Source: Calliopum simillimum
Lineage: Eukaryota > Arthropoda > Insecta > Diptera > Lauxaniidae
Assembly (NCBI GenBank): GCA_951812925.1
Contig: OX638369.1
Coordinates: 47,487,061 to 47,551,060, forward strand
DNA length: 64,000 nucleotides
Reading direction: 5' to 3'
Shown: positions 6,384 through 61,557 of the stretch, piece after piece
Layout: each line of letters begins with the position of its first letter
Position numbering within the stretch: the first letter of the stretch is position 1
The notes under the pieces: model-generated
The model's input: only the letters and a program-made list of their open reading frames with translations
What the model was told of the DNA's origin: nothing
Databases searched by the model: none
Translations under genes and position numbers: made by a program

Positions 6384-7508
6384 AAAAACATGAATACTAT
6401 ACATTCATCGAAAAGTTAGCTTGGTCCAATAAGTGCCACGCTTACACTTCATGATTAACACTTTAATAGAAATATAAGTTTCAAGTAAAGGACGTTTTTT
6501 TTTTTTAAATTACAGTACATGCACTAATTCTCCAATAGATGATCTTTTCTACCCATAATTTTCGTTGTAACTTAAATTTTTTTTATATGAAGTTAATCCA
6601 ATTAACTATTTATTTTTTTATTCTTTTCAGGTAAGTGTATAGAAAAAAAATCTTGAAAATATTTATTCATATCCGTAAGTACTTACTGTTATATATTAAA
6701 CATAAAACTACCCAACTGCTACGAAATCAAATTTAAGTATTGAAATTATGGGTTTGTCGAATAATTTATGAAGAAAACTATAATTTACTCGAAATCTTTA
6801 TTGATTCGAAAACTATACGTTTGGTGTACTTAAAGCGCCCATCTAATAAATAATAAATTTATTCAACAAAAAATTTGGAATTTTCGAAAACGTCGTCTTC
6901 GTAATCGTTTTTATAAATGTTTTCTATCTCCTTATCTTCTTTTAATATGTAATAGAAACTATCGAAAACCACTCAAATGGATGTCACAATCCCATTGTTA
7001 TTGGCGAAAACAACCTGGATTTTGCTTTGTTAATTACAATATTGGTGATACCTTAACCTTTTCTTAATTCAAATAAGCCCTTTTGCGAGTCAAAATAAAC
7101 CTTTTCCAAATTAAATTAAACATTTTCCAAGTTAAATTAACATGTAATTTTTCCAAACCTAAGTAAATATGTATTTTTTGAATCAAATTAAACTTTTTCC
7201 AAATCAAATTATACCTTTTCCAAATCGAAATGAAACTTTTCACGGCGGTCAAACACGATTTCTCGATATTTCAGCTTACAATATTTCTGAGAAAAATGAA
7301 GATATCGATACATATTCTATAGATGGATTCAAATTCAGCATCGCAAAATACTCCGATAATTACAATTTTTGTGAAACCTCTGACTCGGACTTAAAAGTTT
7401 AATGAAAAAAGAAAGAGAAAACTTTAAAAAGTGTTAGAAAGGCTTAAAAAAAACAAAAACCAAGTGCAAAATGTCAATACAAAAATATTCTCGAACCAAA
7501 AGTAAGTA
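6384..7508. other. non-coding stretch containing a recursive splice motif
   Basis: AT-rich, with no gene recognised. Between about 7050 and 7250 there is a loose run of CTTTTCCAAATCAAATTA-like phrases, a degenerate short repeat that produces chance open frames on both strands. The ratchet motif at 6602-6638 is listed separately. Confidence 0.5.
6602..6638 (+). promoter_or_regulatory. recursive splice site (ratchet point) 1
   Basis: A pyrimidine tract ending in TTCTTTTCAG is joined directly to GTAAGTGT, with the junction at 6630/6631. A branch-like TTAAC lies about 24 bases upstream of the AG. The 3' splice site and a consensus 5' splice site therefore share one junction with no exon between them, which is the form of the recursive sites known in long Drosophila introns. 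It points to a + strand transcript. The motif shares GTAAGTGT with the two other sites in the window. Confidence 0.75.
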
Positions 7509-8458
7509 CAGTCGACGTCCAATAATACGAATTATATAATGTCAGCCCTATTCGTAAAATCGAAAAATTCGTATTATCGCAACGAAATTTTGGTCCTTTT
7601 TTCTTCTATATTGAGACATATCGTCGGTTTAGAGACAAAATCCACTAACCCGAATATTTGTTTTGAGAGAAAAACATCAGTTTACGAAAAAATTTTATGA
7701 AAAATAAGAAATTTATGAATTTTTTTTCTGAGTAATATGATATGGAAACGGAAAACACAATAAGGGTGTATCTTAAAACGTGTTAAAGCCTCGAAAGCTC
7801 GTAAAACTGACAAAGTTCGTATAAATTTTGGCAACTATTGCAAGTTTACGTGATTTTCGAGGCATTTGCACATTTTAAAGAATGTTTTGATGAAAACAAA
7901 AAAATATTTGATGGACAAAGTATGGAAATTGAGCTAAACATACTACACTGTTAATCTCAATTTCCAAAAAAATATTTAATGAGTTTTGCCACTAAAAGAA
8001 GAAATTTAAAGTAAAACACGCCAATTGTACCAGCTAAAAAAGCATGATTAGACCGATTTGGCAAAAATGTGGTATTGTTGTATTACCGATGCGCGAGGAT
8101 TTTGCTCTGGTTTTTCTTGTCAATAAAAAGGGTCGCGAAATTGATTTTGGTGGTTTTTGTAAATTTGTAAGAAAGACTACTTTTCAAAAACTCGAACTTT
8201 TTTTTTCAAATTTAACGAAAAAAAGCATTTTAAAACGTTCTAAAAATTCTGAAAAATTTCCCACGTATTCTTTCATGCATTCTAAGCATTTAATCCTTAG
8301 CAAAAGAGCAAAGCCTACTAAGAAAAAATTCTCATTCGTATTATCGAACCGTAAAATTTACCGCTGTTCGTATTATAGAATCACGTGTGGAAGAAATATT
8401 GCATTCGTATCATTGGACATTCGTAATACGGAGCATTCGTATTACTGGACGTCGACTG
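7509..8458. mobile_element. pogo-like TA-flanked DNA element, 950 bp
   Basis: Terminal inverted repeats of at least 24 bp differ at one position. They start CAGTCGACGTCCAATAAT at 7509 and end in its complement at 8458. Both sides carry TA (7507-7508 and 8459-8460), as expected for Tc1/mariner/pogo insertion. Subterminal copies of ATTCGTATTA occur on both sides. An open frame at 8044-8490 (148 residues) crosses the right end and shows no transposase motif, so I treat it as chance. Pogo/Tigger placement rests on the CAGT...ACTG termini and is tentative. Confidence 0.8.
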
Positions 8459-9397
8459 TAAAAGGAAAAAATTTGCTAACGCCTTTGTAGTGCGCCCACA
8501 TTTGGGACAAGAAGGCGTTATTTGAATGCATAAGAAACCACTGCTCGTAAATAAATACTAAAGTTCATTGAATTTATATTAAATGAAGAATAAGCGGGTA
8601 TGTCGAGACCTACAAAATATTTCTTGTTATGTCTTGGCTGCCATTCACTTTCTTTACTTTACTGCTGCTGCTGCAGCACTGCATTCTACAACTTTGACAG
8701 CGTTTACTAAGCTGCTGTTGTGTGGCTGTTGCTCTCAAAAAGTCAGGAGCCAAACCACACAGAAGAAGATAAGATTAAGAAAAAGGGCAACTTTTCTACT
8801 TCAACCGACAAGCCGACAGACACCTCTTTCGTTGGTGTTTCTTCTTTCTTACTTAGTGCTCCCATTATTAGACTTTTGGTTTGAAGTGATTTTTCTGTTA
8901 TTTTCGTAGTTTTTCTTTGATTTTTTCTTTTTCTTTTGTTGTGTTGATTTTATTGTTGTTGCTATGGTTGTTACAGTTTACTATGTAACGTACAATGTAC
9001 GTATGTACATACAAAGAAGCCATGAGCTTCCTTAGCACAATTAAATCACCACTCCCCTTTGAAAAAGCCTCAGGGCAACATATTTAGTGCTTAAAGTTTA
9101 TGAGATACAAGATAGTTGATCTTAGTTGTTTTTTACGAGTACATCATGGATTCTATCTTCAATTTCGTTGTTTTTTTAGTTTTTAATTTTTATCTCGATA
9201 CTATGCTTTACTGCTATCTAAGGGTATAAGTTTGAACAGAGAACAGTGGAGCAATTACATTGATAGAAATTCGTATTCGTATTTTAAATTTCAATATTTC
9301 CTGTTGAGTGTCGAGGTATAAAAAATTCATTCCTGAGATAAACAGAACTGTAGCAATACCTTGAAGAATTATACTTTTTCCAAGAAAAATTATACGA
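8459..9397. other. non-coding stretch with a CTG-rich block
   Basis: At 8620-8900 the DNA is less AT-rich and has a short CTG/CAG run near 8662-8679. It holds a 108-residue open frame (8583-8909, + strand) with hydrophobic ends and no family I recognise. There is no support for translation. The block could be conserved non-coding DNA. The rest is AT-rich. Confidence 0.4.
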
Positions 9398-10100
9398 TAG
9401 GTACTATTTATATTTCGGGAAATGGCAACACTAATGTCAATAGCTAAAATCTGGCAACACCATAATATTTTTAGCATAAACGTACGCACAACGTTTTGAT
9501 GTACAAGTGTTATTTGTTCTGTTTACAGTGAGTTAAGAAAATCAATTTGGCCGAAAAAAGAAAATTTCAAGAGAAGGTTTTCGTTGGATTATTTTTTACA
9601 ACTTTCGAAACAAGAATGTTTCATCGAAACATTGTATGGCGATAAAGCACCATCAAAAACCACAGTATATCGCTGGTATAGTGAATTCAATCGTGGTCAT
9701 AGTTCGGTCGTCGACGAATTCCGTGAAGGTAGTCCAAAATCGGTTGTTGTGCCACAAAACATCGATGCAGTGCATGAACTGATAATGCAAGATGTGACAT
9801 ATTGTGAGATAGAGGCATCCTTTCTCATTAGTTCCACTTCAATACATTTGATTTTGCATGAGCACTTAGTTGTAAAAAAATTTGTTTTCGTTGGATACCC
9901 CATAATTTATCAATCGCTCAAAAAAAGACTCTCCAAATTGATTTTCTTAACTCACTGTAAACAAAACAAATAGCACTTGCACATCAAAACGTTGTGAGTA
10001 CGCTTATGCTAAAAAATGTCAAACTTTATTATGGTATTGCCAGATTTTAGCTATTGACATTAGCGTTGCCAGTTCCCGAAATATAAATCGTACTCTACGT
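9398..10100 (+). mobile_element. mariner deletion derivative with long inverted repeats, copy 2
   Basis: Same structure as the element at 5662-6383. The left repeat is about 9398-9560 and the right about 9939-10100 in reverse complement, with shared words such as ATGTCAATAGCTAAAATCTGG. The internal segment again ends shortly after the second helix-turn-helix, at the same point as copy 1. The two copies are about 3.7 kb apart in the same orientation. Confidence 0.8.
9551..9950 (+). pseudogene. mariner transposase, N-terminal half, copy 2
   Basis: This is the homologue of the coding remnant in copy 1. The expected ATG is changed near 9556, and a frameshift follows the first few codons. The frame from 9584 then reads through KTTVYRWYSEFNRG, VVPQNIDAVHELIMQD and SSTSIHLILHEHL, covering both helix-turn-helix units in one frame. 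The catalytic domain is absent, as in copy 1. There are small deletions relative to copy 1. It has no plausible activity. Confidence 0.75.
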
Positions 10101-11649
10101 ACCTACTTTTTCATAGAAAAATCAATCAAGTACTACATTTGTATCCTAGGAATCATGAAAACAAACAGTTGCTTGAATTTCGAACGTAACCTAGCCTTCT
10201 TAAATAAATATTTTCTATCATATTTTCTAAATGATGTAATAAATTAATTGACGAAAGAACATCGATGATGAATCTGAACCAGCACAAGGGTCGAAAAAAT
10301 TTAAGGACCCACCCTATGGGTACCTTTGACTCCGTTAATATTAAAAAAAAAATATGCATTTTAAAGTTATAGAAATCGACTGGAAATAAACGAAGATGAA
10401 TCTTTTGTTATTGTATACAATTACTGATTATAAATTATTAAATTCAGCCATTCGGTCTGATTATGGTTATGATAATGACTATCGTTATCACTTAATGATG
10501 ATTTCTTATTAAAAGTCAAGTAATTTATTTTACTTTTTTTATTTTTGTACTAAGCAAAACAAATGTTTTTTATTTCTGTTTCGAGGGAGTTTTAATTGCT
10601 TTAAAGCTTAAAATTGATTAGTTATAACTAAAGATTTGTCAAATTCTATAGTAAAATGTCCCTTGAGTCACAAGGGAATGCCCCATATATCAATTTAAAG
10701 TTCAAAAGTTCTTATAAAAACCCCAAATAGAATTATTTCTTCCGCTTCTAAAACATTTCGCTCCATTGTGTTGGCATGGGACGAAAAAAGACCACAACTA
10801 ACGACCCGTTAAACAGAGGTTAAGTCATAAAAGTTTCGCTTTGTGTGGTGTTAAATACATACATACATACAAATACAAATATATTTAATTTTTAATGTGC
10901 ATACATACATACACACTCTGTATTTTCTATATGTTTGTGTGCCTTATTTTCTAAACTACTAACTTATCTTAACGGGAATATAACTATAGCTTTTTGTTTC
11001 TATCTCCTTTTGTTTTGGTTGTCTTTTTCTTTTGTGTGCCATTAAAACTTAGGCAAAATGTTACTCTGACTGACCTTTATAGTATGTACTCGTACTATAA
11101 AAGCACATTTTAAAATTAGGACATAATTTGTTGTTTTTTTCTTTCTCTTTTACCTACAGAGGTTATGGCTTCAAAGTAATAAAAACATTTTTTTAACTGC
11201 ACCATGTAGTGTAATAATTTTTGTTTATGTGTGGCACTTTATGTATATCACTTCAATCTGAGCAATATTGTTAAAGTCATATTTAAATTATAACAGCATA
11301 TTTAAAAGTCCATAAAAAACCCTGAAAAAATTAAACTTCTGACATGACATAGAAGTATGAAAATAACACAGTGCAAGAAATTGAGGGGAAACCAATATGA
11401 TTACGAATCTGGCAACCGTCACGTCTTAGATCCGAGTTATTTTTGATTTAAAGTGCAGAAAACGCTATTTCAGACAATGGCTTACATCTAGGAAATAGTG
11501 TAGTTCACTCTTGTCAGTGCCATTGAAAGCCTTCCTTTTTAAACAATAATTTTAACTTTTCTAATTGGATAATGAATTTCCGAGATATCATACGTTGAAG
11601 TAATGGTATCACAAAGCTCTGTAATGGACTACATTAAATTTGCATACCT
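10101..11649. other. non-coding stretch
   Basis: AT-rich. It has ACAT/ACATACAT microsatellite runs near 10856-10915 and a poor duplicate of another repeat at 11370-11560 (listed). No gene was recognised. Confidence 0.5.
11370..11560 (+). repeat. dispersed repeat, partner at 55030-55200
   Basis: The segment around 11480-11530, with GAAATAGTGTAGTTCACTCT, matches the segment near 55105-55140 with scattered differences in the same orientation. The flanking phrase ending in CCGAGTTATT is also shared. No end structure was identified. Confidence 0.5.
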
Positions 11650-11653
11650 TTAA

Positions 11654-11985
11654 CCCTTTCGACCCGGAAGAAAACTATGGCGTACACAATATTTGTGATA
11701 GGTAAAACTTAGAAACTAAATTTAAGTAAAATGTTTGACCGTCTCCAAATTCAAATTTTCACCGCCAAAGGCGCTTCCGGTCTATACTCCTAACAGATGT
11801 TTTTAATTTGAATTTTCGAGATACAATTTCCTTGGAGAGGTTATAAGAAAAAAAAGTGGTTACTAAAAATTGCATTAATTTTATTAATTCATTCAATTTA
11901 AGTGTCGTTAATAACTGAGTTATATTATTCAAAAGTATTTGTTGAAAAATTTTTGGGATATATTGTCCCAGTCGGTTCGAAAGGG
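11654..11985. mobile_element. piggyBac-like MITE, 332 bp
   Basis: It is flanked by TTAA at 11650-11653 and 11986-11989. The ends are CCCTTTCGACCCGG and, in complement, CCCTTTCGAACCGACTGG. TTAA duplications with CCC...GGG termini are characteristic of piggyBac-type elements. It has no coding capacity. A shorter relative lies at 19116-19265, with the same TTAA flanks and the same GGGACAATATAYCCC subterminal word. Confidence 0.75.
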
Positions 11986-11989
11986 TTAA

Positions 11990-14385
11990 TTCAATGGATG
12001 ATATCTCGAAAAATAATGATTCAGATGAAAATGGTTAAAGGCATGGCTTAAGGAGGAAGCTTAAGGCTATTCGATGGCGCCATGTGTTACTACATATAAT
12101 TAAGCAGAAATATTTTTAAAGTGAATTGAAGTCGCTTTTTAAATTAAACACAAAATATATTTGCTTTACGAACTATTTAATTCTATATTTTCATGTTTCA
12201 CTTTTTAAAAATTTGGCACATTTTTGAGACACATGAAGTTGATTTTAACCTTGAGATTTTGATTTCCAAAAACTTTAACGATTAAATAATACCAATTTAT
12301 TTTTATTTAATTGATTGAACAATTAATGCAAGTCATTACAATTTCCTTAACTGATTAATGACCGTAAGCAATAGTTATGTACGTATAGTTACACAAGAAG
12401 AAAAATTTCTAGCGCTTCTGATCCAAGCACTTCAGAAGTGCTTGTACCCATAGAAATTAAGAAGCACTTCACAATAATTTTTTATAAAGCTGCAGTAAGA
12501 ACAACATGGGTTCGAACCTAGGGTGATTTTTTTTTTATTTTTTTTTTGCTTTATTTCTTTTTTTATTAAAATATTTTTTATTCAACCTTGTTTTATTTCA
12601 CTTTTCTATTTGAATTGAAACTGATTACACTTCAGAAGGGTTTTTGAAGCACTTCTTTTTCCCCTTGGGTATGTATGTATGTATTAAAGCAACAACAATA
12701 ATAACAATAACAATAACAATACGTGTGTATACCACCGGATATGCCATAACAGTAGAGCAAACGTACATAAAGCAATATTTTAAATCATTTCCACTATAAA
12801 TTGAAAATGTACGTACAGGATATGCTTACTGATTAAAAAAAAAAAGAAACAAGAATATACAATTTCCTGAAGCATTATTAATATTAGTGAAAATAAGGAA
12901 ACAATATAAAACCAACCGGTACATACTATATTTATTTGTATGAAACAACTTTTGCACAAAAGTAGTAACAACAACATTGACAGCGTTCGAAAAGTGCAGC
13001 ATAACAAAACATGTGCAATTCTAAATGTCAAAAATATTTACTCTCTCTGTTAAAATTCGACAAACTTCCAAATAAATGAACGCTATAGTATACAGCTCAA
13101 ATCAGATGAAATCTATTAATGAATGAAATAATAATGAAACTTTTTTTTCCGTAAAAATTTCGCCAAATAGTGCCACAACTTTTTCAAACTGGGCGAATTC
13201 ATTATGATTTATTTTAAAATAGTACGTTATTGTTGTTTCGCGTTATGATTTGATAGGCCAAAGTATTAAAAATGGTATTTTTTGAAGAGGGAGAAGCAAT
13301 TTGTGTTTTCAACGATACTACTAACAGTTTGACTTGTGGTTTTTTATATTAAAATCTCATTACTTGGTAACGGAACTTTAAGTTATAGATTTCAAATGGC
13401 ATGACTTTTTCAAACACGTACGATATATTTCAAATATTCTAAAAGTTCTGTTTCCGCTTTTTTGGTTACCGAAGAAGAATTAAACAAGAAAATTTAGCTA
13501 ATTGATACATATTCAAAACAATATTTGTGACCCACATTGCCCTAATTCTCAATCAAAAACTTCAAAAACTGAAATTAAACTTAAAACAAAATAAATCGAC
13601 CAAGGACGTAATACTAAACCGTAAAGTGTTTAAGACATATGGGTACATACATATGTACGAACGAGTATGTATGTATGTTGTTTAATGTCATGATAGTTTG
13701 AAACCAAATGCAAACATTGCAAACTTATTATCCAGATTGTTGTTGTTTTTGTTATTTTTGTAATAATAGAGCTTGTTATGGTGGCAATCGTTCCATTCAT
13801 ACCTACACTCACGGTATATTATTTAATCACATCGTTGAGCAACAACGTCAACAATATGGTGGCCGTCGTTCTCATATTGCGGTAGGAACTTAAATGGATT
13901 TCCCATTAAATCATTTTTATCGCACATGGCTAGAAGCGCGTCAACAGCAAAAAAGTAAGACAACAGCAGAAATTAGAATAAATAAATAAAGAAATATAGA
14001 AACTAAATATATAAATTATTGTTAAAAAAAAACACACAATAAGTTACCTAAGCTGAATTTGAGGTGCTAGACTTTTGTATTTGTTGTAACCTAAGGTGCC
14101 TAATTAGCATGAAATATAATAATTAATTATGAGGAATTGAATTAAATATCTACAAAAAAAATAGAAGTAAGAATTGCGGCATATCATATGATACCATTTA
14201 TAGAAAAAGGAGATATGTGTTGATTTACAAAAAAAATAAAAAAAAAAATCTTAAGACTTTTTAGGTTATTCGTTCAAGGAGAATATGAAAATTTGTGGGA
14301 AATATTTAATACAATAGATATAAACTATATATGTTCTTCACTTAAACCTTTTCCAAATCATATTGACCTTTTCACAACACTTCTG
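11990..14385. other. non-coding stretch
   Basis: AT-rich with no gene. It has TATG/GTAT microsatellite near 12667-12682, an AACAAT run near 12690-12720, and an inverted-repeat element at 12395-12670 (listed). A block at 13740-13990 is somewhat GC-richer with CAACAACGTCAACAATATGG-like words and could be conserved non-coding DNA, but nothing decides this. Confidence 0.45.
12395..12670. repeat. small inverted-repeat element with a tRNA B-box-like word
   Basis: The words AGCACTTCAGAAGTGCTT near 12425 and CACTTCAGAAGG with GAAGCACTTCTT near 12629-12655 form inverted repeats around a T-rich core. Near 12505 the core holds ATGGGTTCGAACCTAGG, a close match to a pol III B box. No A box is clear. It resembles a reduced version of the tRNA-module elements elsewhere in the window, but the relation is not proven. 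Confidence 0.4.
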
Positions 14386-15024
14386 CACGGGTAAAAAAAA
14401 AAAAAAAAATAATAATAAAAAAATAGTTTTTACTACTTTCTTTCCAGTTAATTTTATTAGAATTTCAGGACAATTTCCCCAATAAAACAAATTTTGCTTT
14501 ACTGTTTTAGTAAACTCTAAAATTTCGAATAATAATAATAAATTAATAAAAAAAAAAAAAAAATCTGATCACACTAGCATTCGAACCGGGGTCCGTCCAT
14601 GTGATACATAGAAAACTATTATTTTTTGTTGCAATTACAAACTTGTCAGTCCTCTACACCACTGACCTATATGATGAAGAGGTATAAAATTTGTATACTA
14701 ACTAAGCAAATGTATGTCCAAACATAAATATTTTTACTAGAATCATAAAGTAAAAATGGCAGATAATTTATTTTTCTAGCGGAAAGTTTAATTTACTCTA
14801 CGTATAGGAAAATGTAGGCAATTTAGAGTAAATATTACTTTATTTTTATTATTTCACAATATTTTATTTGTAATTATTAGTCATACGTATGTTTATTTAT
14901 GTTTAAAATTTAGTGTTAATTACTTTAATTTACTACTTCATTAATTTACTACTACTTTAATTTACTCCTACTTTAATTTACTACTGTAGTGAAGTTAAAA
15001 TTAATACATTCGTTTTTCTCCGTG
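14386..15024. mobile_element. CACGG-type TIR element with tRNA-like core, copy 1
   Basis: It begins CACGGGTAAAAA at 14386 and ends TTTTTCTCCGTG at 15024. The right half aligns with the elements at 29208-29916 and 56788-58210 through phrases such as TTTTTACTAGAATCATAAAG and ATTTAGTGTTAATTACTTTAA. The middle carries a tRNA-like segment (14570-14668) that differs from the one in the other two copies. It is flanked by TG on the left and TA on the right. Confidence 0.65.
14570..14668 (-). other. tRNA-like sequence inside TIR element
   Basis: Reading the - strand, GGTCAGTGGTGTAGAGGAC resembles a tRNA D-arm and A box. CCCCGGTTCGAATGC resembles a T-arm and B box. The spacing is about 25 bases longer than in a normal tRNA, so it is a relic or a diverged pol III-type promoter rather than a functional tRNA. 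Confidence 0.5.
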
Positions 15025-16170
15025 TACAATTTAAATTCGCCTTTTTGTATAAAATAAACTTTTTAATAGATCATTTTGATCTTTTTCATATCAAATTAAG
15101 CTTTTTACAGGTCCTATTAAACTTCGTAAAAACATTCACTTAAAATGATATATCTATGCAGCAGCCATCCTTATGAAACTGTGTTCAGAATTTAGAGTAA
15201 CCGAGTTCACTTTAACCTGTTGCTCCAGATCGTGAATAACCCTAAAGTTTAATTTCATAGTTTTTTTTATCACTAAACAATTCTATAAACTTTAGTAACT
15301 CTATTAAAAAACAAAAAAATATCAATGTAAAAGAGTACAAGTCAATGACATGAGGCCTGTCAGAAAACATGTTACCACAGTTGGTATGTATGAAATGGAA
15401 AATAGCGCAAGGACGATTTAAAGGGTAGCAACAGTCGTTCAAAAATGAAAAAAGCATTAAACTAAAGTTGTTGTATGCTAAGTAGCAATTGATGTTAATA
15501 TTTTTTTGTGCACCTGCTACAATTTGCAACACGCTACCCGACAAGTTGGCATACTTGTCGGAATAAAGGAAGGAATAAAAAACTACCCTCGATTTTTTTA
15601 TTTTTTTTTTTTTTTTACTGCACATTTTTACTGTGCCGTGTATTTTGTTTTTACTGCTATCAATAATTAATTGACAATAACAATGAAATTATGTTTATTA
15701 TTTGTGTAATAATTACAATAAATGTCATTAGAAAAAGGTTTCATTATGTGAAATCAGTCATTTTAATCAGTTGAATAATTGTAAAAGTACAAGCACGTAC
15801 CACATAATGCTAAAGTAACAGAGTTTCTATATAAAATAATACTTAAATTGATAGCAAAGTTTGATAAGAAAACTTTTCGCTAATTACGCATTCACATAGT
15901 TTTACTTTATTAAATTTTTTTATTTTTGTTTATTAACTGCAAAATACTGCAAAATTTTCCATGTAAATATTTACTTCCTTTGAAAATACTTAGTTCTTGG
16001 AATATAAAATAATCTTTTCCAACTATTTTAAATTATAATCATTTTCTGGTTTCGTTTAATTTTGTCAAAATAAAATGTTTGCAGAGTTATAAGCTCGCTT
16101 TCTTGAATAACATTGGCTGTGCGAAATTAGCTAACATTTTTTTTGCTTCATATTTTCGGTTTTTGAGATA
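15025..16170. other. AT-rich non-coding stretch
   Basis: No recognised gene or element. The 127-residue open frame on the - strand at 15242-15625 is low-complexity with no family signature and is probably chance. Confidence 0.5.
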
Positions 16171-17043
16171 TGGGAGATGTGTGTACCTTGGTCCGAGTGT
16201 ACCTTGGTCCGAGTGTCGGTTGCCACTCAACAGTTGCACGTATACGATAATGTTCTTCTATGGAATTTTCCACTCATACCGGTGACTCATATTAGTAGAC
16301 TTCAGACCGTCATGCGTGTATAAAAAGCGACGGAAAAAGTGTTTTTTGTGTGTAAAAATTTGTTTTTGGAGTAAACTACGAAACGTTTGGTGAGAAACTT
16401 ACTTGAAATATTACAGTTTTACAACACCAGGAAGGAAGTTAAGTTATTGTGTAAAGCTTTTAGTGTGTTTTAGATGTATTTTCATTAATATATGTTATGG
16501 GTGTTGACAGTTTTTAAAACATGCTGGCTGTGTGTACCTTGGACCTATGCTTATTGACCAGCGAGCCTTTTTCGACGGGCAACCAGGAAGCCATAATCGT
16601 CTCTCAATATAATATTATTATTATTATTTACGTGATTAATGTACTTATGTGCAACCATTTTTCTTTAATTAATTGTTTTTTACTAAATGCACTTTTTTGT
16701 GTTATATTTTTTGCATGATTATTTTTTTTTTTATTGAAAAAAAATTTACTTTTGATTACATAATAAATGGTTCTTTCATAATTTATTACCTTAATACAAT
16801 GTATTCTTTTTTATTTTTAATAGTCCAAGGTACACTTGCATGGTGTACCTTGGACCGTTTGAGATTGCAACGGAAATAGTAATATTTATACTAAATGGTG
16901 AGACATAGAAATATCATTGTCACGTCCTTTGATGCTGCAAGCATTGTAGAAATATAGCTTAAACAAAAAACTAAAGAAACCTTTCTGGAAAATCATTCAC
17001 ATTGAAAAAACTGAAAAGCGGACCAAGGTACACACATCTCCCC
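16171..17043. mobile_element. TA-type TIR element, tag GTACCTTGGTCC
   Basis: The ends GGGAGATGTGTGTACCTTGG (from 16172) and its complement (to 17043) match over about 24 bases. The tag GTACCTTGG(A/T)CC is repeated at 16186, 16199, 16534, 16829 (inverted), 16841 and 17022 (inverted). TA is present on the left and degraded on the right. It has no transposase motif. The architecture matches the other TA-type families here. Confidence 0.7.
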
Positions 17044-17150
17044 TGCCTCTAAATTTACCAGATACAAAATATATCTCAGGATTTGAAATTTTTACCGAAA
17101 TCATATAAGAAGCTTAAGCTAGGGTTGTGTTAAATCAATTAATATTTTAA

Positions 17151-17838
17151 GGGTGGCTTCTCATGTAAAATTTTCAAAAAATCGATTTTTTTTTTCATAG
17201 GTTGATAGAATAACGTCTTGGGAGTATATTCCCAAAGTTTCATGACTCAACTCTAAATATTATGGAAAATATGATTGATTGAACCAGCGCGCTCGGGCGC
17301 GCTTTGTGTGCGATTTTTTTTTTTTTTCAAACTTTGAATCGTTTTTTCTCAAAACTATGGTTTTAAAATCGCGGTACACGATTGCGAAAAAACTACTTAA
17401 CCGATTTTTGATTTCTAAAAAGTGTTTTGCAGATTATAAATTGAACTAGTGCATGAATGTCTGAAATTGTGGAAAAAAGTTATTTTATACACTTTTTAGC
17501 CCCATTTAGCGACAAAAAATGACGAAAAAATAGTACTTTTTTTTCAAGACGTGATTTCAATATTGTAGAATCGAATTTTTTGGAATTGCAGACATTCATG
17601 CACTCAGGGGAACCCTGCTGAATAACAAGAAATTTTGTTTTATGTTTCAGATAAAAACTTTGCGACATTTAATAAGTCCGCCATTTTGTGATTTTAGTTT
17701 TTGAAAAAATGCTTTTTTTATAGTTCGAACATGTTCTTAAATATATGCAAAAAATTATTTGTGTGTGTTTTTATTTTCCGAGTGAAAAAAAATCCCGAAA
17801 AACAAATACTTTTTGACGTGTTACATGTGAAGCCCCCC
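17151..17838. mobile_element. TTAA-flanked element with GC-rich hairpin, copy 1 (688 bp)
   Basis: It starts GGGTGGCTTCTCATGTAA, ends TTACATGTGAAGCCCCCC, and is flanked by TTAA at 17147-17150 and 17839-17842. This suggests a second piggyBac-type family, although its sequence is unrelated to 11654-11985. A GC-rich near-palindrome, GCGCGCTCGGGCGCGC, sits at about 17287-17302. Copy 2 at 35324-36048 is about 95% alike where compared by eye. Compared with copy 2 it lacks about 49 bases near 17655 and has 12 extra bases near 17590. Confidence 0.75.
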
Positions 17839-17949
17839 TTAAAAAAGTTTTTTATTTTAAAACTTTTTTGAATTTTATACAAAAAAGCTTTGTTGGCACT
17901 TCTGCCCAACCAGGGACATTTTCACCCTTTTTTTGAACTTTCGACTCTA

Positions 17950-49725: not shown

Positions 49726-49727
49726 TA

Positions 49728-52450: not shown

Positions 52451-52452
52451 TA

Positions 52453-53901
52453 ACGGGTGATCCAATAAGAGCTTCCAAAGAGCTTGATGCAAATCTTTAT
52501 TTGGAATGATAGTTCGGTTCCTACAATTCAATGTTAAAAAATGAATTCGTTCAAATGGTGCCCATGACTAGCTCTTAAATGGTTCATTCTGTGTGTCCAA
52601 TTCTCGACAGCTCTTTCGAGCTATCGGCCAGTATTCCTTGAATAACACGAGTTATGTTAGTTTCCAAAGCGTCAATGGTTTCGGGTTTGTCGACAAAAAC
52701 AAGTGATTTAACATATCGATACGTCAAACGTAAAAGTTGGTAACTCGAAAATCTTAGTTTTAGTTATGATCATTTTTGAATTGTTTTCGTTAAAACAAAA
52801 AAACTAAAAACATAAACTGAATTAATACTTTTGAAATCTTTTAACCATATGAAGGTTTTTCGACTATTAATTCGTTGTCACTGTTCCAAATGGATTTTCA
52901 GAGATATTAACAATGGCGTCAAATCACATGATCTTGGTGGCCAATTAAAAGCAGCAATTCTTGAGATGATGTTTTCATCGAACGTTTCCCTCAATAAAGC
53001 GATTGTTTTTCCAGCTGTATGGCATGTTGCGCCATCCTGTTGAAACCAGAGGTCGGCTACACTAATATCCTGAATTTTTGGCAACAAAAATTCATTGATC
53101 ATTGCTCTGTAGCGAGCACCATTGACCGTAACACGGGCTCCATCCGCATTTTTGAAGAAATACGGTCCGATGATGCCTCCTGCCTATAAACCATACCAAA
53201 CAGTACATTTTTCGGGATACATTGGAAGCTCTTGGATTGCTTCTGGTTGCTCATCGGCCCAAATACGGCAATTTTGCTTGTTAACGTAGCCGTTCAACCA
53301 GAGATGAGCTTCGTCGCTAAACACAATTTTTCGATAAAATAATGGATCAATTTGAAGATGTTATAAGGCTCATAAACCGAAATTTAAACGTACACCAAGA
53401 TCAGCTGATTTTAATTCTTGTACGAGCTGTATTTTATAGGCCTTCGGACCAAGATCAGCCCTCAAGATACGCCACAATGATCCATAAGAGATGCCCGAAG
53501 CCTGAGATCGGCGACAAATGGATTGTTTACGGTTTTCATGAGCACTCTCTGCTACTGCAGCAATATTCTCTAAATTATGGGCTCTATGCACTCTGGTTGT
53601 ATGATGAATGTCCAATAGTGTAAAATTGCTTCGAAATCTGGTGATGGTGTTACGAATAGTCCGTTCAGTTGGACGCTCATAACGACCAAAATGATGTTGA
53701 AGAACTCTTTAACATTCTCCAACTGATGACTGATTTTGGTAGTAAGTTTCCACAATTAATAAGCGTTATTCAGGAGTAAGTGTATTCATGATTGAGTCGT
53801 ATTGAATACTGAATACAAACGTCATATGGACAAGCCATTTGACACATAACAGCTGTAAAAACAAGCCAGTTGAAAAAGGGATCTCGTATTGGATCACCTT
53901 T
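52453..53901 (-). mobile_element. Tc1/mariner element, DD41D (rosa)-like, 1,449 bp
   Basis: The termini GGTGATCCAATAAGAGCTT and, in complement, GGTGATCCAATACGAGATC are flanked by TA at 52451-52452 and 53902-53903. The interior is a degraded transposase on the - strand. Its length is close to that of a complete mariner element, so this is a nearly full-length but mutated copy. Confidence 0.85.
52580..53789 (-). pseudogene. DD41D-like mariner transposase, degraded
   Basis: Translation of the - strand from the ATG at 53789 reads ETYYQNQSSVGEC and ERTIRNTITRF, then VHRAHNLENIAAVAES, SYGSLWRILRADLG, KIVFSDEAHLWLNGYVN, INEFLLPKIQDI, WFQQDGATCHTA, WPPRSCDLTPL and VDKPETIDALETNI. These run in the order of a complete Tc1/mariner transposase. 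The first two catalytic aspartates (FSDE, QQDG) are visible. The third would lie about 41 residues after the second, in the LTPLD(Y/F) position, but reads LTPLLI here. Stop codons occur at codon 8 and elsewhere, with frameshifts. A non-homologous insertion of about 130 bases interrupts it near 52740-52870. It is not functional. The spacing suggests the rosa/DD41D group known from fruit flies. Confidence 0.75.
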
Positions 53902-54024
53902 TAGAAAGTGATAAGCTTTCCTATGAAGTTGAATTTGATAAAATTAAAAGTTTTGGTAAAAAAAAAAATCTTTAAAAAGTTCATTATGATAATTTTTTTT
54001 TTAAGTTTTAAATTTTTAATTTTA

Positions 54025-54985
54025 GCGTAAACCCAGAGAAATGGCACCCTTTAAAAGAAGTAAACACAAATTTATTCTTTAGTTAATTTCAAAGAAAAAG
54101 AAAGAATACAACCAAAATAAAAATTAATGTAAATGTCCAAATGCACCATATCATGGGTGATTTGGCACCCTAAGTAGCTTTTAAGTTTTTTTTTTGCCAA
54201 ACTTGATGCATGTTTTCGAATATGATGTACATGTTTCATGTGACAACATACGGAACATTACAACCATAAGTTGCATTGGTTGTGTTTTCCTCTTCAAGTT
54301 TTTCTTTTCTGCAGGACCACGTTATCAGCAGACCTTAGAATTTGTTGTTTATTTTCTTGTGTTCGGCTTTGAGTTTTTCAGGCGATATTTCACTATACAT
54401 AATTTTTGGCGTGTTGTCACTTATATGCAAAGTTTCCACAGAGTTTTTTTAAATATATGACAAAACCTCAAGTTAATCAAGTAAAAATAAAAAAGGAATC
54501 ATTGATGGTCCTACCCGACTAAAATTCTGTGATTCTGAAGTGACTGTTTGTTCAAGTGCCTCAAATTTGTTCTCCCAAATATCGTACAACATGCGAAGTA
54601 AGAAATGGCACCCGAACCATATCACCCTCAGTAATTGGGTGCCATTTTTTCTTATTGGTATATACCAAATAAAAATGCCACGAAACAAATAAACCTGTTC
54701 ACTCACGCTCGTATTCATCTGAAAACTTAATCACATTCAATTCTGTTTGTTTTGATATGTATATGCTCTACTTCCTCTCAAAAAAAAAGTCAGCCTACAA
54801 TCCTAATTTTTTTAAATCCCATACACAAAATTATAGCAACAACAGCTAAACGACTATTCATCACGAAGTCTTTCGCGCAATAGAACTAAATTTTTGTCCA
54901 TATTTGAATGCTAGGAAAGCTGCAAGTATTGAAATTGAAAAGGGTGCCTTATCATCTAGGGGTGCCATAAATCCCGGACTTACCC
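54025..54985. mobile_element. TA-type TIR element, tag ATGGCACCC
   Basis: The left end GCGTAAACCCAGAGAAATGG (from 54025) and right end, in complement, GGGTAAGTCCGGGATTTATG (to 54985) are flanked by TA at 54023-54024 and 54986-54987. The tag GGCACCC is repeated at about 54044, 54164, 54608, 54638 (inverted) and near the right end (inverted). Open frames of up to 88 residues have no recognised motif. Confidence 0.7.
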
Positions 54986-54987
54986 TA

Positions 54988-55983
54988 CATGCATTATAAA
55001 GTTGGTGCTGTTAATGCAAATGTGTTAAAAATTGTTTTTCTGGTATCCGAGTTATTGCTTTAAAATGTAGAAAATGATTTTTTCGGCATATGGGGCACAT
55101 CCAGAAAATAGTGCAATTCACTTGTGTCAACTGCATCTCATTCAAAAATATTTCCTCTCAATTTGTTGCTCTGTGTAATTAGTACTTGACGATTGTGAGT
55201 TGTCGGAAAGATTGTGAAATTGACCCTTGTCCTTTTGCTGTAATCAAAAACTTTTTTTTATTTAAATAAAAAAATAATTTATTTAATGAATAGAACTTGA
55301 CTTAAAAGTATTTAGGTGTATTCACTCAAAAGCCACTTAATTCACCTTTTTAACACAATGTAAAGCTCTCTATACAGTAGAGTCAAAACTTTTATGCGGC
55401 ATTCAACATAACCAACCCTTTCAAATGATTTTTTTTTCATTTTTAATAAGCATAAGTTTTTGCTTTTTTAAATATATATTTTTTAAGCCACATTCTTTTA
55501 ACCTTTTTTATATTCATACTAAGGGATTACCTTGCCATGGGGCGGCCACAAAGAAACAGCAGCAGCTGTTCACTGCGGTGTTGTTCCGCTGCATAGATAG
55601 ATAGATATACGAAACATGAAAAGATACCACAACGTGCTAACAGACAAATTCACTATAACTACTGACTTTATTTTGTATTTTTTTTTTATCTACAACCTGC
55701 AACAGCTGTAGTTTTCACTTTTTTCTCCTTTTTATTTTTGCTGAATTTTTTATCTTTTATTACTTTTTGCTATTGTTTGGCTAAAAACACGCATTCATTT
55801 ATGATTATGGTTTTTAAAAATGAGAAAACTTTATTATGTTGTAGCTCTCTGTAGTGGCCGGCTAAGCACTAGGCAAAAACAAAACATTTCCAAACAATGA
55901 AAATATCTTTTGTTTTCAAGTTTTTTAATGACTTTATTTGCATAAAATTACTATGATCAATAAACTGTTAACTTTTTACACTC
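54988..55983. other. non-coding stretch
   Basis: Contains the dispersed repeat at 55030-55200 (partner 11370-11560). A GC-richer block with CAGCAGCAGCTG lies near 55555-55570. No gene was recognised. Confidence 0.45.
55030..55200 (+). repeat. dispersed repeat, partner at 11370-11560
   Basis: GAAAATAGTGCAATTCACTT and its surroundings align with 11480-11530, as does the upstream CCGAGTTATT. The class is unknown. Confidence 0.5.
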
Positions 55984-57217
55984 AACAACCAGGGTAAATT
56001 CATTTCGTCCTTCCGTTTGTAACGCAGAAAAGAGGCGTGGATGCATTTAATCAAAGGTGTATTAGTCGTCAACTTGGATATCCGTTTTCCTCAAAAATAC
56101 TATGATTTAAGGTATCAAAATAATCATGCACGATTTGTCAAAAAAAAAAAAAATCCGCAGGTCTCAGAACCTGTTTGACGCATAAGAATGAAATTTAGCA
56201 CATATTTAATGGGCACTTAGCCCCATAGGAGCGCTGCCACGCCCTTAAAAACAAAATATGGGTGTACATCTTAAAAACCGGATTTTTTTAGCGAAATTTG
56301 ATGCTTTATTGTGGAAAAATGTTACAATATATTTTATTCAAAGTATTGTCCATTGGAAGCTACAACATTTCCCCATCTTTCAGGCAATTTATGAATTCCA
56401 TGCCAAAAAAATTGCGCCGGCTTGGCGGCCAAAAATGAATCGAGCCAATTTTCGATATCTTGAACTTAAGTGAACCGCATTCCTGATAGGGCATTCTGCA
56501 TTGATCGGAACAAATGGTAGTCTGATGGTGCAAGGTTTGGGCTATAAGGCGGGTGAGACAAAATTGATTTAGATTTCCCATCCGTTGTTTTCCAGGTAAT
56601 TTTTGACTGGGGCAGCAATATGTGGCCGAGCGTTATCGTGGTGGAAAATGATTGACTCGTGTCTGGTCGCATACGTTGGCCGCTCTGCCTGGATTTTCTG
56701 CTTCAATCGGATCAATTGTTGACGATAGAGTTGAGCATTCATGGTTTGGCCACCTGTCAACAGCTCACAATGGATCACACCTAGCTGCACGGAGAAAAAT
56801 ACGCATCATAATTTTTACTCCACTCGGCTAGTCGAAAAATTAAAGTAATCAACACTAAATTTCAAGTATAATTTACCTTACGTCTGAACTATTTGATGGA
56901 TCCCTAACGTCATATTTACAAATAAAATGTAGTTAAATAATAAGGGAATATTTACTACAAATTTCCTACATTTGACTTTATGTAAAGTAATTTATACTTT
57001 CAGAAAAAAAATGTATGACCATTTTGAATTTATAATTCTAGTCAAAATAACTTTATTTTTTTCACGTACAAAAATGAGTGTCATAATTGTCACCTTACTC
57101 GAGTAAGGTAAATATCATAAAAATATAAAATCATTTTGACTTTTATAATTCTAGTAACAATTTTTATTTTTGGACAGACATTTTCTTTATATACAAATTT
57201 TTTTGCTTCTACATCAC

Positions 57218-57294
57218 ATGCGTAAGCAGCGCAGAGGATATGTATCTGACTATCATACGGAAGGGCCAGGGTTCGTACCCCGGCGCCGGTCAGC
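57218..57294 (+). other. tRNA-like sequence (pol III A and B boxes)
   Basis: Near-identical to 29413-29485 in reverse orientation, with GCAGCGCAGAGGATATG and CAGGGTTCGTACCCCGG. It has a few extra bases upstream of the A box (GTAAGCAGCGCAG). The conservation of this segment between copies is higher than in the flanking AT-rich parts, as judged by eye. Confidence 0.65.
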
Positions 57295-57473
57295 AAATTT
57301 ATTTTTTTTTTGTTTGAACTATACAGTAAGGTAAATATCACGCCAATTTTTTCATAAAAATTACTTGCAAACATACATTCTGAATTGACTAAAAAAGTAA
57401 GGTGAAATTTATGTCGGTGTAAAGTTGTCACTATTCTGACTTGAAATTCTGGTAAAATTTATGAGAAATAGAG

Positions 57474-58172
57474 TGTATGTATGTATGTATTCTCCTTTAA
57501 CTCCTAGGAGGAGCATAGGGCCAATATGAAATCTCTCCATTTGTCACGATCCCTTGCGATGACTTTGATCTCTTGCCACGATTTTCCCGATTCTTGGATT
57601 TCCTTTTCCAACGACCTTTTCCAGTTGGTTTTGGGTCTACCACGTCCTCTACTGCCTTGTGGATTCCACTCAAGGGCCTGGCGACAAACTTCGCTGTGTG
57701 GTTTCCGGAGAGTGTGACCAATCCATCCCCATTTGCGCAGCTTGATCTCGTTTGCTATAGCCTTCTGTTTGCATTTTTGATGTAGCTCGGCATTTGATAT
57801 AGTGCGAGGCCACCAAACCTTTAATATACGCCTTAAGCATTTGTTGACGAATACTTGCAGCTTGTTTGTTAGTTGTTCAGTAACAAGCCATGTTTCGCAC
57901 CCATATAACAAAACCGATTTCACATTCGAATCAAAAATGCGCACTCTCGTTTTGGTGGATATAACGGATGAAGACCATATTTTGTTCAGTTGAGCAAACG
58001 CGCCTTTTGCTTTTGCTATTCTTAAGTTGATATCCTCTTTTGCTCCACCATCCATGGAGATAATGCTGCCTAGATACGTGAAGCTATCGACGTTTCCGAT
58101 GTCATCACTGCCAGCTTTAAACGTCATGTCATTGCTTGCGTTTAGCTTCATGCTTTTAGTCTTGGATACGTT
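57474..58172 (-). mobile_element. 5'-truncated non-LTR retrotransposon (RTE-like)
   Basis: The 11-base word GAGAAATAGAG is duplicated exactly at 57463-57473 and 58173-58183, marking the target site inside a TIR element. The element reads on the - strand and ends with a TACA-type microsatellite tail (57474-57490), as in RTE-type LINEs that end in short repeats instead of poly-A. Only the 3' part of the reverse transcriptase region is present, the usual result of truncated reverse transcription. Confidence 0.85.
57504..58172 (-). pseudogene. LINE reverse-transcriptase, C-terminal part
   Basis: The uninterrupted frame runs to a stop at 57504. The real LINE-derived protein begins near NVSKTKSMKLN, at the 5' truncation point. 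The longer frame upstream to 58313 is a chance fusion reading through TIR and mariner DNA. Recognisable blocks are FTYLGSIISMDGG, RIFDSNVKSVLLYGCETW, FVNKCLRRILKVWWPRTISN, IKLRKWGWIGHTLRKP and GRGRPKTNWKRSLEKEI, followed by DRDKWRDFILALC. These are the thumb and C-terminal conserved region of non-LTR reverse transcriptases found widely in invertebrate LINEs. The catalytic YADD region and endonuclease are absent. The frame has no stops, so the insertion is fairly recent. Confidence 0.85.
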
Positions 58173-58736
58173 GAGAAATAGAGTAGCAAGTACTATTTTT
58201 TTTCTCCGTGTGGTCCTGACCAGGACGTTCTTTGTCTTCGACATCAAAATCACCACTTTTAAACCGTCGAAACCACTCACGACAGCTTGATTCAGCTGGA
58301 GCATAGTCCCCATAAACTTCTACAAGCAAACTATGACTTTCCGCAGCAGTTTTCTTTGCAAAAAAATGACCCAACAGAACCTCCCGCAAATGCTGTCTTT
58401 TTCTCCAATTTTCGAAGTTATTCATCGTGAAAAATAATAATGATGCACACAAGATAAAATTGTTTTGTTGACTGATTTTGACAGCTGTCAAATGTACCTT
58501 CAATATATAAAGTTCGAGCTTTCACGATATTTGTTAGTACGGACATCCACCGTCAAATTCCGGTTTTTAAGTTGTACACCCAATATATCTCAGAAACTGT
58601 TTAACACATCGAAATGAAATTTGTCACATAAAGGGCACTAAGCCAAATAACATGCTTTAGAAAAATGGGCGGTTCCACGCCCCTAAAAATCAAAATTTGA
58701 CATATCTCAGAAACTGTTTGACGCATTGGAGCGAAG

Positions 58737-58890
58737 CAGTGGCGGTTCCAGCATTGTCAAGAGGGGCCGATTGACTACATTTCTAGATAATAGCAGAATG
58801 TTTTTAAAATCTTTACATATAATTTAAAAAAAACTGTAATCAATTGGTTTGAGAGGGGGGACCGATCGCCCCCCCTTGGATCCGCCACTG
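58737..58890. mobile_element. hAT-like MITE, 154 bp
   Basis: The ends CAGTGGCGGTTCCAGC and, in complement, CAGTGGCGGATCCAAGG are flanked by the 8-base words GAGCGAAG (58729-58736) and GAATGAAG (58891-58898), matching at 6 of 8 positions. It is inserted in repeat D3. Ends like CAGTGGCGG are common in insect hAT MITEs. Confidence 0.7.
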
Positions 58891-58984
58891 GAATGAAGTT
58901 TGGTATATTGTATGTTAAAGGCATCGGGATAAAAGTGAGTCAACGCTAACCGGGTAAAATTAAAACAAAAAGTAATTAATTTCA

Positions 58985-59115
58985 TTAATGGGTAATAATT
59001 TTAATAAATAAAAAATATGTTCATGAGAGTAGATATCCCAGCAGTTGTTGGACTGGGATATATGTCCCAAGACCTGCAGCGCCTCTGGCGGCGAAAATTA
59101 AATTAAGTTTCTAAG
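58985..59115 (-). repeat. fragment related to the piggyBac-like MITE
   Basis: In reverse complement, TTAGAAACTTAATTTAA, TTTTCGCCGCCAGAGGCGCT and a GGGACATATATCCC word align loosely with the first half of 11654-11985. No TTAA-bounded ends were found. Confidence 0.35.
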
Positions 59116-59156
59116 GATAACCTCTCACATATATTGTATATTCAATAGTTTTTTTA

Positions 59157-59745
59157 TTCCCTACACCCAGGGTATATTCACTTTGTCTTTCCGTTTGTAA
59201 CACAGAGAAGGAGGCGTGGCAGATATAGAAAAGTATATATATTCTTGATCAGCGTCACCTCCTGATATAGCCATGACTGGGTTAGCATGGAAATACATTT
59301 TCTAGGAAAACTGAGCAAGATAATTCAATGAAATTTGGTACACTGCCTCTGTCGTCAAAGCTAGCTCGTGGGATTGAAAATGAGGGAAATCGGTCAACGG
59401 ACACGCCTACCATCCATACAAAAAATACATTCAAAATGCAACTTTAGGAGTATTTTTCAAGACAATGCAACCGACATACACATAAATACTACGAATTGTA
59501 AGCGCAAGCTCTGAAAAAAAAAAATAAAACTGGAGGAATTCGGATAAGAGGGCGTGGCACGGCCCATATAAGCAAAAGCTTCAAAATGCTATAGTGAAAA
59601 CGTTTTTTGAGATAATCCAACCAATTTTCACTCAAATACTAAGGACTATAAATACAAACCCTGAGAAAAAACTGGTTAAATTCGTACAAGAGGGCGCGGA
59701 AACTCCCATATAAGCGAAATTTTCCAAATAGTTTTTGGTTCGAAA
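59157..59745 (+). mobile_element. Helentron/DINE-like repeat D2
   Basis: CCCTACACCCAGGGTAT hairpin, CTTTCCGTTTGTAACACAG, GTATATATATTCTTGATCAG and repeated GGCGTGGCAC words make this the most continuous copy here. It shows the uninterrupted form of the site that the giant palindrome occupies in D1. The 3' hairpin was not found. No coding remains. Confidence 0.6.
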
Positions 59746-59759
59746 GGGGTAATCGACAG

Positions 59760-60604
59760 ACAGAAAGAAATAAATCACAAAAAAAAAAAAAAAATAAACA
59801 AATTAATAAAAAATGGATATTTTTTTCTAATTAAGAAAAAATATTTTTTATGTAATTATTTAAGGCAACTTAAATGGACATAATGATGTTTTGTTATTTT
59901 GAAGCTATTTACACAGGCGCCTTGATTCCACTTGTTCTGATTGAGTTTTATACGCACAAACGCCTACATTGAAAAACACATAAAGCAAATAAATGGTTGA
60001 CGCCAGAGACCACCCGCAATTTTACGTCAACAGAATAAATCCGGCACTGTTCTGTATGATTAGGATCTATAGCGCCTGAATATATGCTATGTCTTTTGCT
60101 TTAGCAAACAATTTTACAACAATTGTTATAATAAAATTATTTATGAAATGACTTAGTTTTTGTTAAAAATTAACTGAGCAATATTTTCATATTTAGTAGA
60201 AAAGGGTATACAATAAATGAAAATCTCTGGCCTAATTTTTAATATCTCTCCCATTTTTTCTTTTTATAACTCAATCGTATAAATGTTGTTTAATGCACTA
60301 ATAACTCGAGGGCTCTTTTTTTTGTTTTGTTTCAACATTTTGCTAAAATTAATTAATAAAAATTAATGACTTTTGTCGCGCTTGTATAATGAATATTGTT
60401 TTTGTAATGGTTACATAACTGCAATTATGATTTATTATACTTGTAATTATAGTTTTGGCGTCGCTACATTTAAGTGATGGACTTAATGCGATACGAAATT
60501 TTTAGATTTTAATGAAGTTTTTTTTTTTGGCTTGCAATTTATTTTTTTTTTGTTTAATTAACTATTGTATATTTTGGTTGAGTGTTAATTGCCAGTTTAT
60601 AAGA
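59760..60604. other. AT-rich non-coding stretch
   Basis: No gene or repeat pair was recognised. Confidence 0.5.
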
Positions 60605-60709
60605 AATAAAATAATAAATTTTTGTCAAGATTTTTAAACGGTCAAGTTGGCTAAATTTGAATTGTATACGTTTTTATAATAATAGAATTTAGAAAATCAA
60701 TTTTCAACA

Positions 60710-60781
60710 TAGCGCTTAGCTCAGATAGTAGGATCGTCAACTAGCAACGCAGGGGTCGTAGGTTCAATTCCGCAGCGAGCT
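60710..60781 (+). other. tRNA-like sequence in left terminus
   Basis: TAGCTCAGATAGTAGGATCG is an excellent A-box/D-arm match, and GTCGTAGGTTCAATTCCGC contains a perfect B box (GGTTCAATTCC). The length is tRNA-like. The anticodon and acceptor stems pair poorly, so it is probably a pol III promoter-bearing relic. Confidence 0.65.
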
Positions 60782-60869
60782 TGTTGACAAATATTCAATA
60801 CGGCTTTTGCCTTTGACAAATTATTTTATTTTTATATTTTTATCTTTTTATTTGATGGAAGAACTGTAG

Positions 60870-61194
60870 ATGTTTGCAATTTTGATATACGACGAAGAAG
60901 AAAACCCTGAAAACAAAATAGCAAGATATCAAATGCGATTCCTTCGCGATCTACATATGTTCCTTTCCACAAAGGAGTTTACACAAAATTTTAGAGTTCC
61001 TGCAACCTTGTGTCGTAGTCTTGTGGATGATTTAAAGCCGCATGATATTCAGAAATGTCGCTACCTTTGTCCGCTCGTATTTTGGGAACGTTAAATTGGA
61101 CATGGGTCTTGTCAAAAATGTTTCGGAAATAAATGCAACCTTCCTATGAGCCAGTCGTCTCTATCACGTTCCGTGCATGTGGCAGAACAGCATT
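60870..61194 (+). pseudogene. PIF/Harbinger transposase fragment
   Basis: From the ATG at 60870, the frame reads RYQMRFLRDLHMFLSTKEFT then QNFRVPATLCRSLVDDLKPH, like the N-terminal part of HARBI1-type transposases. After an in-frame stop (61092-61094) the same frame continues GHGSCQKCFGNK and MSQSSLSRSVH, matching the family's GSYQ...SQSSVSR DNA-binding motif. A frameshift then leads into INEVKFAGIKFPSW, where the family normally has a helix followed by a FP motif. A full protein is about 350 residues with a DDE catalytic core, and that core is absent. The assignment rests on motif order, not on a search. Confidence 0.6.
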
Positions 61195-61317
61195 AATGAG
61201 GTGAAATTTGCTGGAATAAAGTTTCCGAGCTGGAAAAAATTTCAAAAAAAAAGAAACCAAGGAAAAAACAAACAAGAAAAAAGAAATAACATGAAAAACA
61301 ATAAAAAAAATTTTCAA

Positions 61318-61387
61318 GTTCGCTGGAGAATTGAACCTACGACCTCTGCGTTGATTGTTGACGATCCTACTATCTGATCTAAGCGCT
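61318..61387 (-). other. tRNA-like sequence in right terminus
   Basis: Inverted partner of 60710-60781. It reads AGATCAGATAGTAGGATCG and GTCGTAGGTTCAATTCTCC on the - strand. Both boxes are kept, with the same spacing as the left copy. Confidence 0.65.
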
Positions 61388-61520
61388 CTGTTGAAAATTG
61401 ATTTTCTTGACCGTTTAAAAATCTTGATAAAATTTCTTGACATAAATTTTATCCAGAAATCACAGAATCAGGCTGTAACTCTCTTGACACATATTATCTT
61501 AAAATTGATTTTAATTTATT

Positions 61521-61557
61521 TACTAATTTATTTTTTCTTTTCTTTTTAGGTAAGTGT
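61521..61557 (+). promoter_or_regulatory. recursive splice site (ratchet point) 3
   Basis: Branch-like CTAAT at 61523-61527 is followed by TTTTTTCTTTTCTTTTTAG joined to GTAAGTGT at 61549/61550. It has the same structure, strand and downstream GTAAGTGT as the other two sites. It lies about 20.9 kb after site 2. Confidence 0.85.

Follow-up and report, generated by a model that had tools for sequence, protein, structure and literature searches.

Putative zero-nucleotide recursive splice sites in a 190-kb intron of the drongo/AGFG gene of the fly Calliopum simillimum

Very long introns of Drosophila are described as carrying zero-nucleotide ratchet points, in which an acceptor and a donor are fused on the strand of the gene and of which several may occur in one intron (PMC6110457, PMC8605326). 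Such sites follow the consensus (Y)nNCAG|GTAAGT (PMC5126111), typically bound recursive segments of 9-15 kb, and are succeeded by a cryptic recursive splicing exon (RS-exon) of ~50 nt with a donor of its own (PMC8605326). The stretch of DNA analysed here (64,000 nt of Calliopum simillimum, C2:47487061-47551060, + strand; hereafter the window, positions 1..64000) shares this layout: it holds three fused acceptor|donor sites, which very probably represent zero-nucleotide recursive splice sites (ratchet points) and belong to a set of five that would divide a 190-kb intron of the drongo/AGFG gene. As in the Drosophila cases, the fused sites lie on the strand of the gene, several to one very long intron, and each opens a predicted short cryptic exon that has a donor at its downstream end.

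The three junctions, which had been reported in an earlier note on this DNA, are present on the + strand at 6630/6631 (...TTTTCAG|GTAAGTGT), 40637/40638 (...CTTTCAG|GTAAGTGT) and 61549/61550 (...TTTTTAG|GTAAGTGT). Their acceptor sides, together with two further sites of the same kind that were recovered on the + strand when the scan was widened (by 100 kb per side, gapless, 264 kb in all), are as follows:

6602..6630, + strand: acceptor side of putative ratchet point 1, with a TTAAC branch-like word at -26 (A at 6605), a pyrimidine tract and CAG
40611..40637, + strand: acceptor side of putative ratchet point 2, with a CTAAC branch-like word at -24 (A at 40614), a pyrimidine tract and CAG
61523..61549, + strand: acceptor side of putative ratchet point 3, with a CTAAT branch-like word at -24 (A at 61526), a pyrimidine tract and TAG
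C2:47573959, + strand, beyond the window: putative ratchet point 4 (RS-exon of 39 or 43 nt)
C2:47614387, + strand, beyond the window: putative ratchet point 5 (RS-exon of 45 nt)

All five match the (Y)nNCAG|GTAAGT type of fused motif, with C at position -3 in three of them and T in two. The earlier count of three is thus accurate for the window and too low for the intron, two sites lying further downstream, and the branch-like words claimed for the three sites are evident at sites 2 and 3 and weaker at site 1. By a combined acceptor and donor score (from a simple weight matrix, not trained on this genome) the three sites rank first to third on the + strand of the window (16.5, 15.0 and 14.2, followed by 7.8), and the absence of such a motif from the - strand was confirmed (best score 4.8). 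The word AGGTAAGTGT occurs four times on the + strand and never on the other; the fourth copy (at 3322), which the earlier description had passed over, has no pyrimidine tract, scores 1.4 and was rejected as a ratchet point. Within the 264 kb the best - site scores 10.2 and is situated 51.9 kb upstream of the window, outside the intron, and a further 30 kb beyond the scan yielded no sixth site (best + score 1.2). As tract-AG words are common in AT-rich DNA, one could suppose that the sites are chance or decoy motifs of a long AT-rich intron and are unused; against this, 100 third-order Markov simulations (one strand each) gave a mean of 0.03 sites scoring at least 12 (maximum 12.8), where the real sequence has three, confined to one strand (0 on -).

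As judged from its flanking exons, the window is entirely within one 189,838-nt phase-2 intron of the drongo/AGFG Arf-GAP gene (+ strand), delimited as follows:

C2:47474836-47475002, + strand: drongo coding exon 1, ending at a GTAAGT donor
C2:47475003-47664840 (window -12057 to 177780, with window 1..64000 internal), + strand: drongo/AGFG giant intron, identified by its exons, their open join, the ArfGap halves and homologues
C2:47664841, + strand: start of drongo exon 2 after TTACAG, identified by the open join and the ArfGap profile

The proposal of a giant intron belonging to a hidden gene is upheld, and so are the predicted strand and direction: exon 1 ends 12.1 kb upstream of the window and exon 2 begins 113.8 kb downstream, both on the + strand and with an open ArfGAP join. 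The intron splits the ArfGAP domain, the complementary halves of which are found at its two ends. The 55 full codons of exon 1 (product MAVVRKKQDDKFLKVLRELVTTGGGNRQCFDCGQKGPTYVNMTIGSFVCTRCSGVL; 3' end ...GGAGTTCT) match Pfam ArfGap (profile 3-42, 46.4 bits, E 4.9e-12), with 'Nucleoporin-like protein RIP' (2olm, which we take to be AGFG1) as best match among solved structures, and the product of exon 2 (beginning RGLTPPHRVKSISMATFTQEEIDFLKSHGNDLCAKTWLGL...) matches profile positions 49-114 with 28.5 bits, just under the cut-off of 28.7. Two AGs were tried as the exon 2 acceptor; the one chosen (C2:47664841) gives an open ArfGAP frame, the other a stop. Furthermore, the resulting junction (SGVLRGLTPPHRVKSISMATFTQ) is identical in full-length proteins of Stomoxys, D. 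elegans and Bactrocera (P0121, P0124, P0149). The ArfGAP domain is N-terminal in the host product, as is characteristic of drongo/AGFG, and its fly homologues are named AGFG1 or drongo (the latter in one D. busckii model). No host exon was found on the - strand among the 22 open frames of at least 100 aa in the window (both strands, low-complexity filter), a search that short exons would escape. Only two of these frames exceeded the Pfam cut-off (DUF6451 and a Mos1-type HTH_48), neither being a host domain, and three more matched below it (HTH_48, DUF4817 and an odorant-receptor domain, E 0.0045), the remainder having no match. About 32% of the intron has a second copy within the same intron, which fits growth by repeats.

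Five of eight fetched fly proteins begin at an internal methionine (MATFTQ) in exon 2 and do not include the first half of the ArfGAP domain (Musca vetustissima, Lucilia cuprina, D. rhopaloa, Rhagoletis pomonella and D. busckii 'partial': P0130, P0136, P0146, P0151, P0154), these five short models having been selected for the lack of a listed ArfGAP domain. A giant intron may have caused their truncation in annotation, or they are genuine alternative-start isoforms.

A second line of evidence is provided by the sequence downstream of the junctions, where each site is followed by a GTAAG donor at a distance of 31-45 nt (+44, +31, +39, +39/+43 and +45; site 4 has an extra candidate at +72). Those of the window are:

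6631..6674, + strand: predicted cryptic RS-exon 1 of 44 nt, which opens with the ratchet donor GTAAGTGT and is followed by its own donor GTAAGTAC from 6675
6675..6680, + strand: RS-exon 1 donor, GTAAGT by sequence
40638..40668, + strand: predicted cryptic RS-exon 2 of 31 nt, which opens with GTAAGTGT and is followed by its own donor GTAAGAAA from 40669
40669..40674, + strand: RS-exon 2 donor, GTAAGA by sequence
61550..61588, + strand: predicted cryptic RS-exon 3 of 39 nt, which opens with GTAAGTGT and is followed by its own donor GTAAGTAG from 61589
61589..61594, + strand: RS-exon 3 donor, GTAAGT by sequence

Within +20..+60, GTAAG is found at all five sites, whereas elsewhere in the region 25 of 1261 AGGT sites have it (P 3e-9), and exact GTAAGT at four of the five as opposed to 7 of 1261; at +60..+100 and at +100..+140 none of the five has GTAAG. 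As the intron is in phase 2, any of the five RS-exons would, if kept, read CTG TAA and impose a stop at the second codon, while the direct join of exon 1 to exon 2 stays in frame. Since each site is provided with a usable downstream donor, which scores about equal to the donor that would be rebuilt on exon 1, some drongo mRNAs might instead retain expressed alternative microexons, or regulated poison exons, that start at these sites. Expressed RS-exons are known in Ubx (PMC8605326), where m1 and m2 resemble the drongo sites in that a short exon of a giant intron has a donor rebuilt at its 5' end; however, the Ubx microexons measure 51 nt, are coding and stay in some of the mRNAs, whereas the predicted RS-exons of drongo (31-45 nt) carry an immediate stop. 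None of the five could code in this frame, which leaves a role as poison exons, and five independent poison exons in a single intron seem less likely to us than ratchet points; we regard this alternative as improbable.

The ratchet-point architecture recurs across the genome (scans covered 690 Mb). A tract of nine pyrimidines joined to AGGTAAGT was matched at 146 places, compared with 71 for the reversed pattern, and when GTAAGT was additionally required after a 20-50-nt spacer there were 44 rows, representing 43 sites (one site accounting for two rows), compared with 0 reversed, where composition alone predicts ~1.5. A spacer of 51-81 nt leaves 7. The 71 reversed matches lend something to the notion of chance or decoy motifs, but donors at five of five sites and the contrast of 43 with 0, added to the simulations, render it very unlikely. 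RS-exon lengths at the 43 sites range from 27 to 56 nt (median 45), and multiples of three are not convincingly over-represented among them (17, 15, 11). Points 1 and 2 of the drongo intron are not among the 43, because the tract of site 1 contains an A and the second donor of site 2 is GTAAGA. By comparison, vertebrate long-intron cases are few, nine being noted in the cited account (PMC8605326), as against the 43 full-architecture sites found here by a strict pattern. Strand pairing, counted on 100 of the 146 places, was strongly one-sided within 100 kb: 14 same-strand pairs and one opposite, or 8 and 1 with the drongo intron excluded (random mean of same-strand pairs 1.06). At 1 Mb the same-strand excess is smaller (21 vs 12 opposite, drongo intron excluded), and some site pairs 100-300 kb apart are near-identical copies. 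Ratchet-type sites seem, from this recurrence, to be used widely in this fly. The eight bases described as common to the junctions are shared by the three sites of the window, but do not extend beyond them as a rule: GT stands at +7/+8 in four of the five intron sites and in only 3 of the 43 genome-wide, two of these three being in the drongo intron, and GTAAGTGT was accordingly rejected as a general extended consensus.

Some families of sites elsewhere in the genome being near-identical, it could be argued that duplication or transposons distributed the sites, which would then be marks of copied DNA and not splice sites under selection. Within the drongo intron, sites 1/3 and 3/4 match at 76-77% in alignments of 83-104 nt that span the junction, and RS-exons 1 and 3 are alike (z 4.5); yet the 76-77% likeness is centred on the common tract and donor, and outside the core motif only three of 30 pairwise comparisons exceed z 2.5, each of them outscored by the best of its 200 shuffles. 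An origin of the five sites by mutual duplication was found weak and was not kept, and we hold this explanation to be the least probable of those considered.

Near-identical ratchet-like sites with the same RS-exon form one family at C4:17223093, C4:17346876, C4:17575061 and C2:9043520, and further near-identical pairs are located at C4:38116045/C4:38736061, C5:91645691/C5:92155870 and C5:89678444/C5:93362042. Such families are perhaps carried by duplications or transposons.

The interpretation of the sites as ratchet points, put forward in the earlier note, is thus supported by the sites themselves, their host intron, the RS-exon donors and the genome-wide recurrence, all of which (as well as strand and frame consequence) were read from sequence; the use of the sites, the order of events, exon definition and the decay of faulty products are what we infer. 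During passage of the polymerase over a site, the strong tract-YAG acceptor and the weaker GTAAG donor 31-45 nt further on would jointly define a short cryptic exon, by exon definition; the AG of the site would be joined to exon 1, ligation would rebuild a donor (exon|GTAAGT), and this rebuilt donor would serve the next segment in place of the RS-exon's own, so that no base is added to the mRNA. Faulty products in which the RS-exon is kept would decay. Exon definition followed by use of a rebuilt donor is the logic proposed to be common to such sites and to vertebrate recursive splicing with RS-exons.

Several observations weigh against this interpretation. The T that takes the place of C before the AG at two of the five sites departs from the consensus, and the six segments into which the ratchet points would cut the 190-kb intron (18,688, 34,007, 20,912, 25,350, 40,428 and 50,453 nt, 5' to 3'), at 18.7-50.5 kb, exceed those typical of Drosophila. 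Genome-wide, 103 of the 146 tract-AGGTAAGT places are without an exact GTAAGT at the given distance, and with 71 matches in the reversed pattern, many of the 146 may be due to chance. Moreover, the ratchet donors score 14.0 or 11.3 in their intron context and the RS-exon donors 5.4-7.0 (by a simple weight matrix), but once joined to exon 1 the rebuilt donor (TCT|GTAAGT) scores 5.6, no higher than the RS-exon donors and the same as exon 1's own donor. Donor strength by this matrix therefore fails to explain the omission of the RS-exon, and simple donor competition as its cause is unsupported; either proximity to the joined exon, the sequence of steps or some other factor must be at work, or else the matrix lacks the necessary refinement.

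A possible second signal, an asymmetry noted post hoc in a single genome, lies at position +7 of the donors. The ratchet donors of the 43 sites have T in 21, G in 16, C in 6 and never A at this position, whereas the RS-exon donor of the same sites has A in 21 of 43 (Fisher P 4e-8); with six near-identical copies dropped, the values are 0/37 and 19/37 (P 2e-7). Over all tract-AGGTAAGT places A is found at +7 in 14 of 146 (four of the 14 having one tract sequence in common), as compared with 26 of 71 in the reversed control (P 4e-6), and other GTAAGT words of the fetched region have it in 39 of 120, over which background the excess at the RS-exon donors is not significant (P 0.07). The drongo intron conforms, with G, G, G, G and T at its five ratchet donors, A at all five RS-exon donors, and A likewise at exon 1's own donor. 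An A at +7 would lengthen pairing to the 5' end of the U1 small nuclear RNA. Pai and colleagues argued that, for a recursive site to be used a first time, U2AF/U2 has to prevail over U1 there (PMC6110457), and an avoidance of A at +7 would favour this. We suggest, with slightly less than even confidence, that the ratchet donor is tuned against holding U1 until U2AF/U2 has made use of the acceptor that overlaps it, the RS-exon donor being free to bind U1 and define the exon. The absence of +7A from ratchet donors was not found in the available portions of the published Drosophila descriptions, and one narrow literature search gave no report of the asymmetry by title or abstract start; it looks to be new.

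The giant intron is preceded by a gene-dense stretch (C2:47422355-47475002) that contains ebi/TBL1, as well as likenesses (judged by eye) to RNA polymerase I subunit 2, AP-2 alpha and ribonuclease H2 A. The best named matches of the host gene and of the upstream ebi are from Ceratitis, Eurosta, Bactrocera, Rhagoletis, Zeugodacus, Haematobia, Stomoxys and Drosophila. Close to the far end of the intron, ~0.3 kb short of its 3' splice site, is a long simple repeat that reads open in several frames (C2:47663710-47664570). Within the window, a 298-nt unit is tandemly duplicated at 43356-43931 (84% matches), and the DUF6451 open frame (57504-58313, - strand), judged to be LINE-like (long interspersed nuclear element), adjoins the relic of a Mos1-type transposase N-terminal HTH_48 (58159-58521, - strand). 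Neither ARAGORN (bacterial code) nor Rfam at gathering thresholds matched a tRNA or RNA family in the window.

In a narrow search drongo was not found named in connection with recursive splicing (for PMC6110457 this refers to the main text and not to the site tables), and no work on recursive splicing in other insects was recognised by title or abstract start; a bee paper cites recursive splicing, in the portion available, only to state that one exon is not a substrate (PMC8553928). Taken together, the mechanism is known in flies, and its sequence signature would here gain a further fly genome, one with a 190-kb intron. From raw sequence alone it was possible to derive the strand and the extent of a gene whose nearest known exons are 12 and 114 kb out of view, and giant introns of this kind may be truncating public annotations of the host gene. 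As the reversed control had no match in 690 Mb, the recipe of a tract-AG|GTAAGT followed by GTAAGT 26-56 nt on may serve to find giant introns without RNA. Furthermore, the +7 asymmetry, if general, would open to direct test whether U2AF/U2 or U1 binds first at ratchet points.

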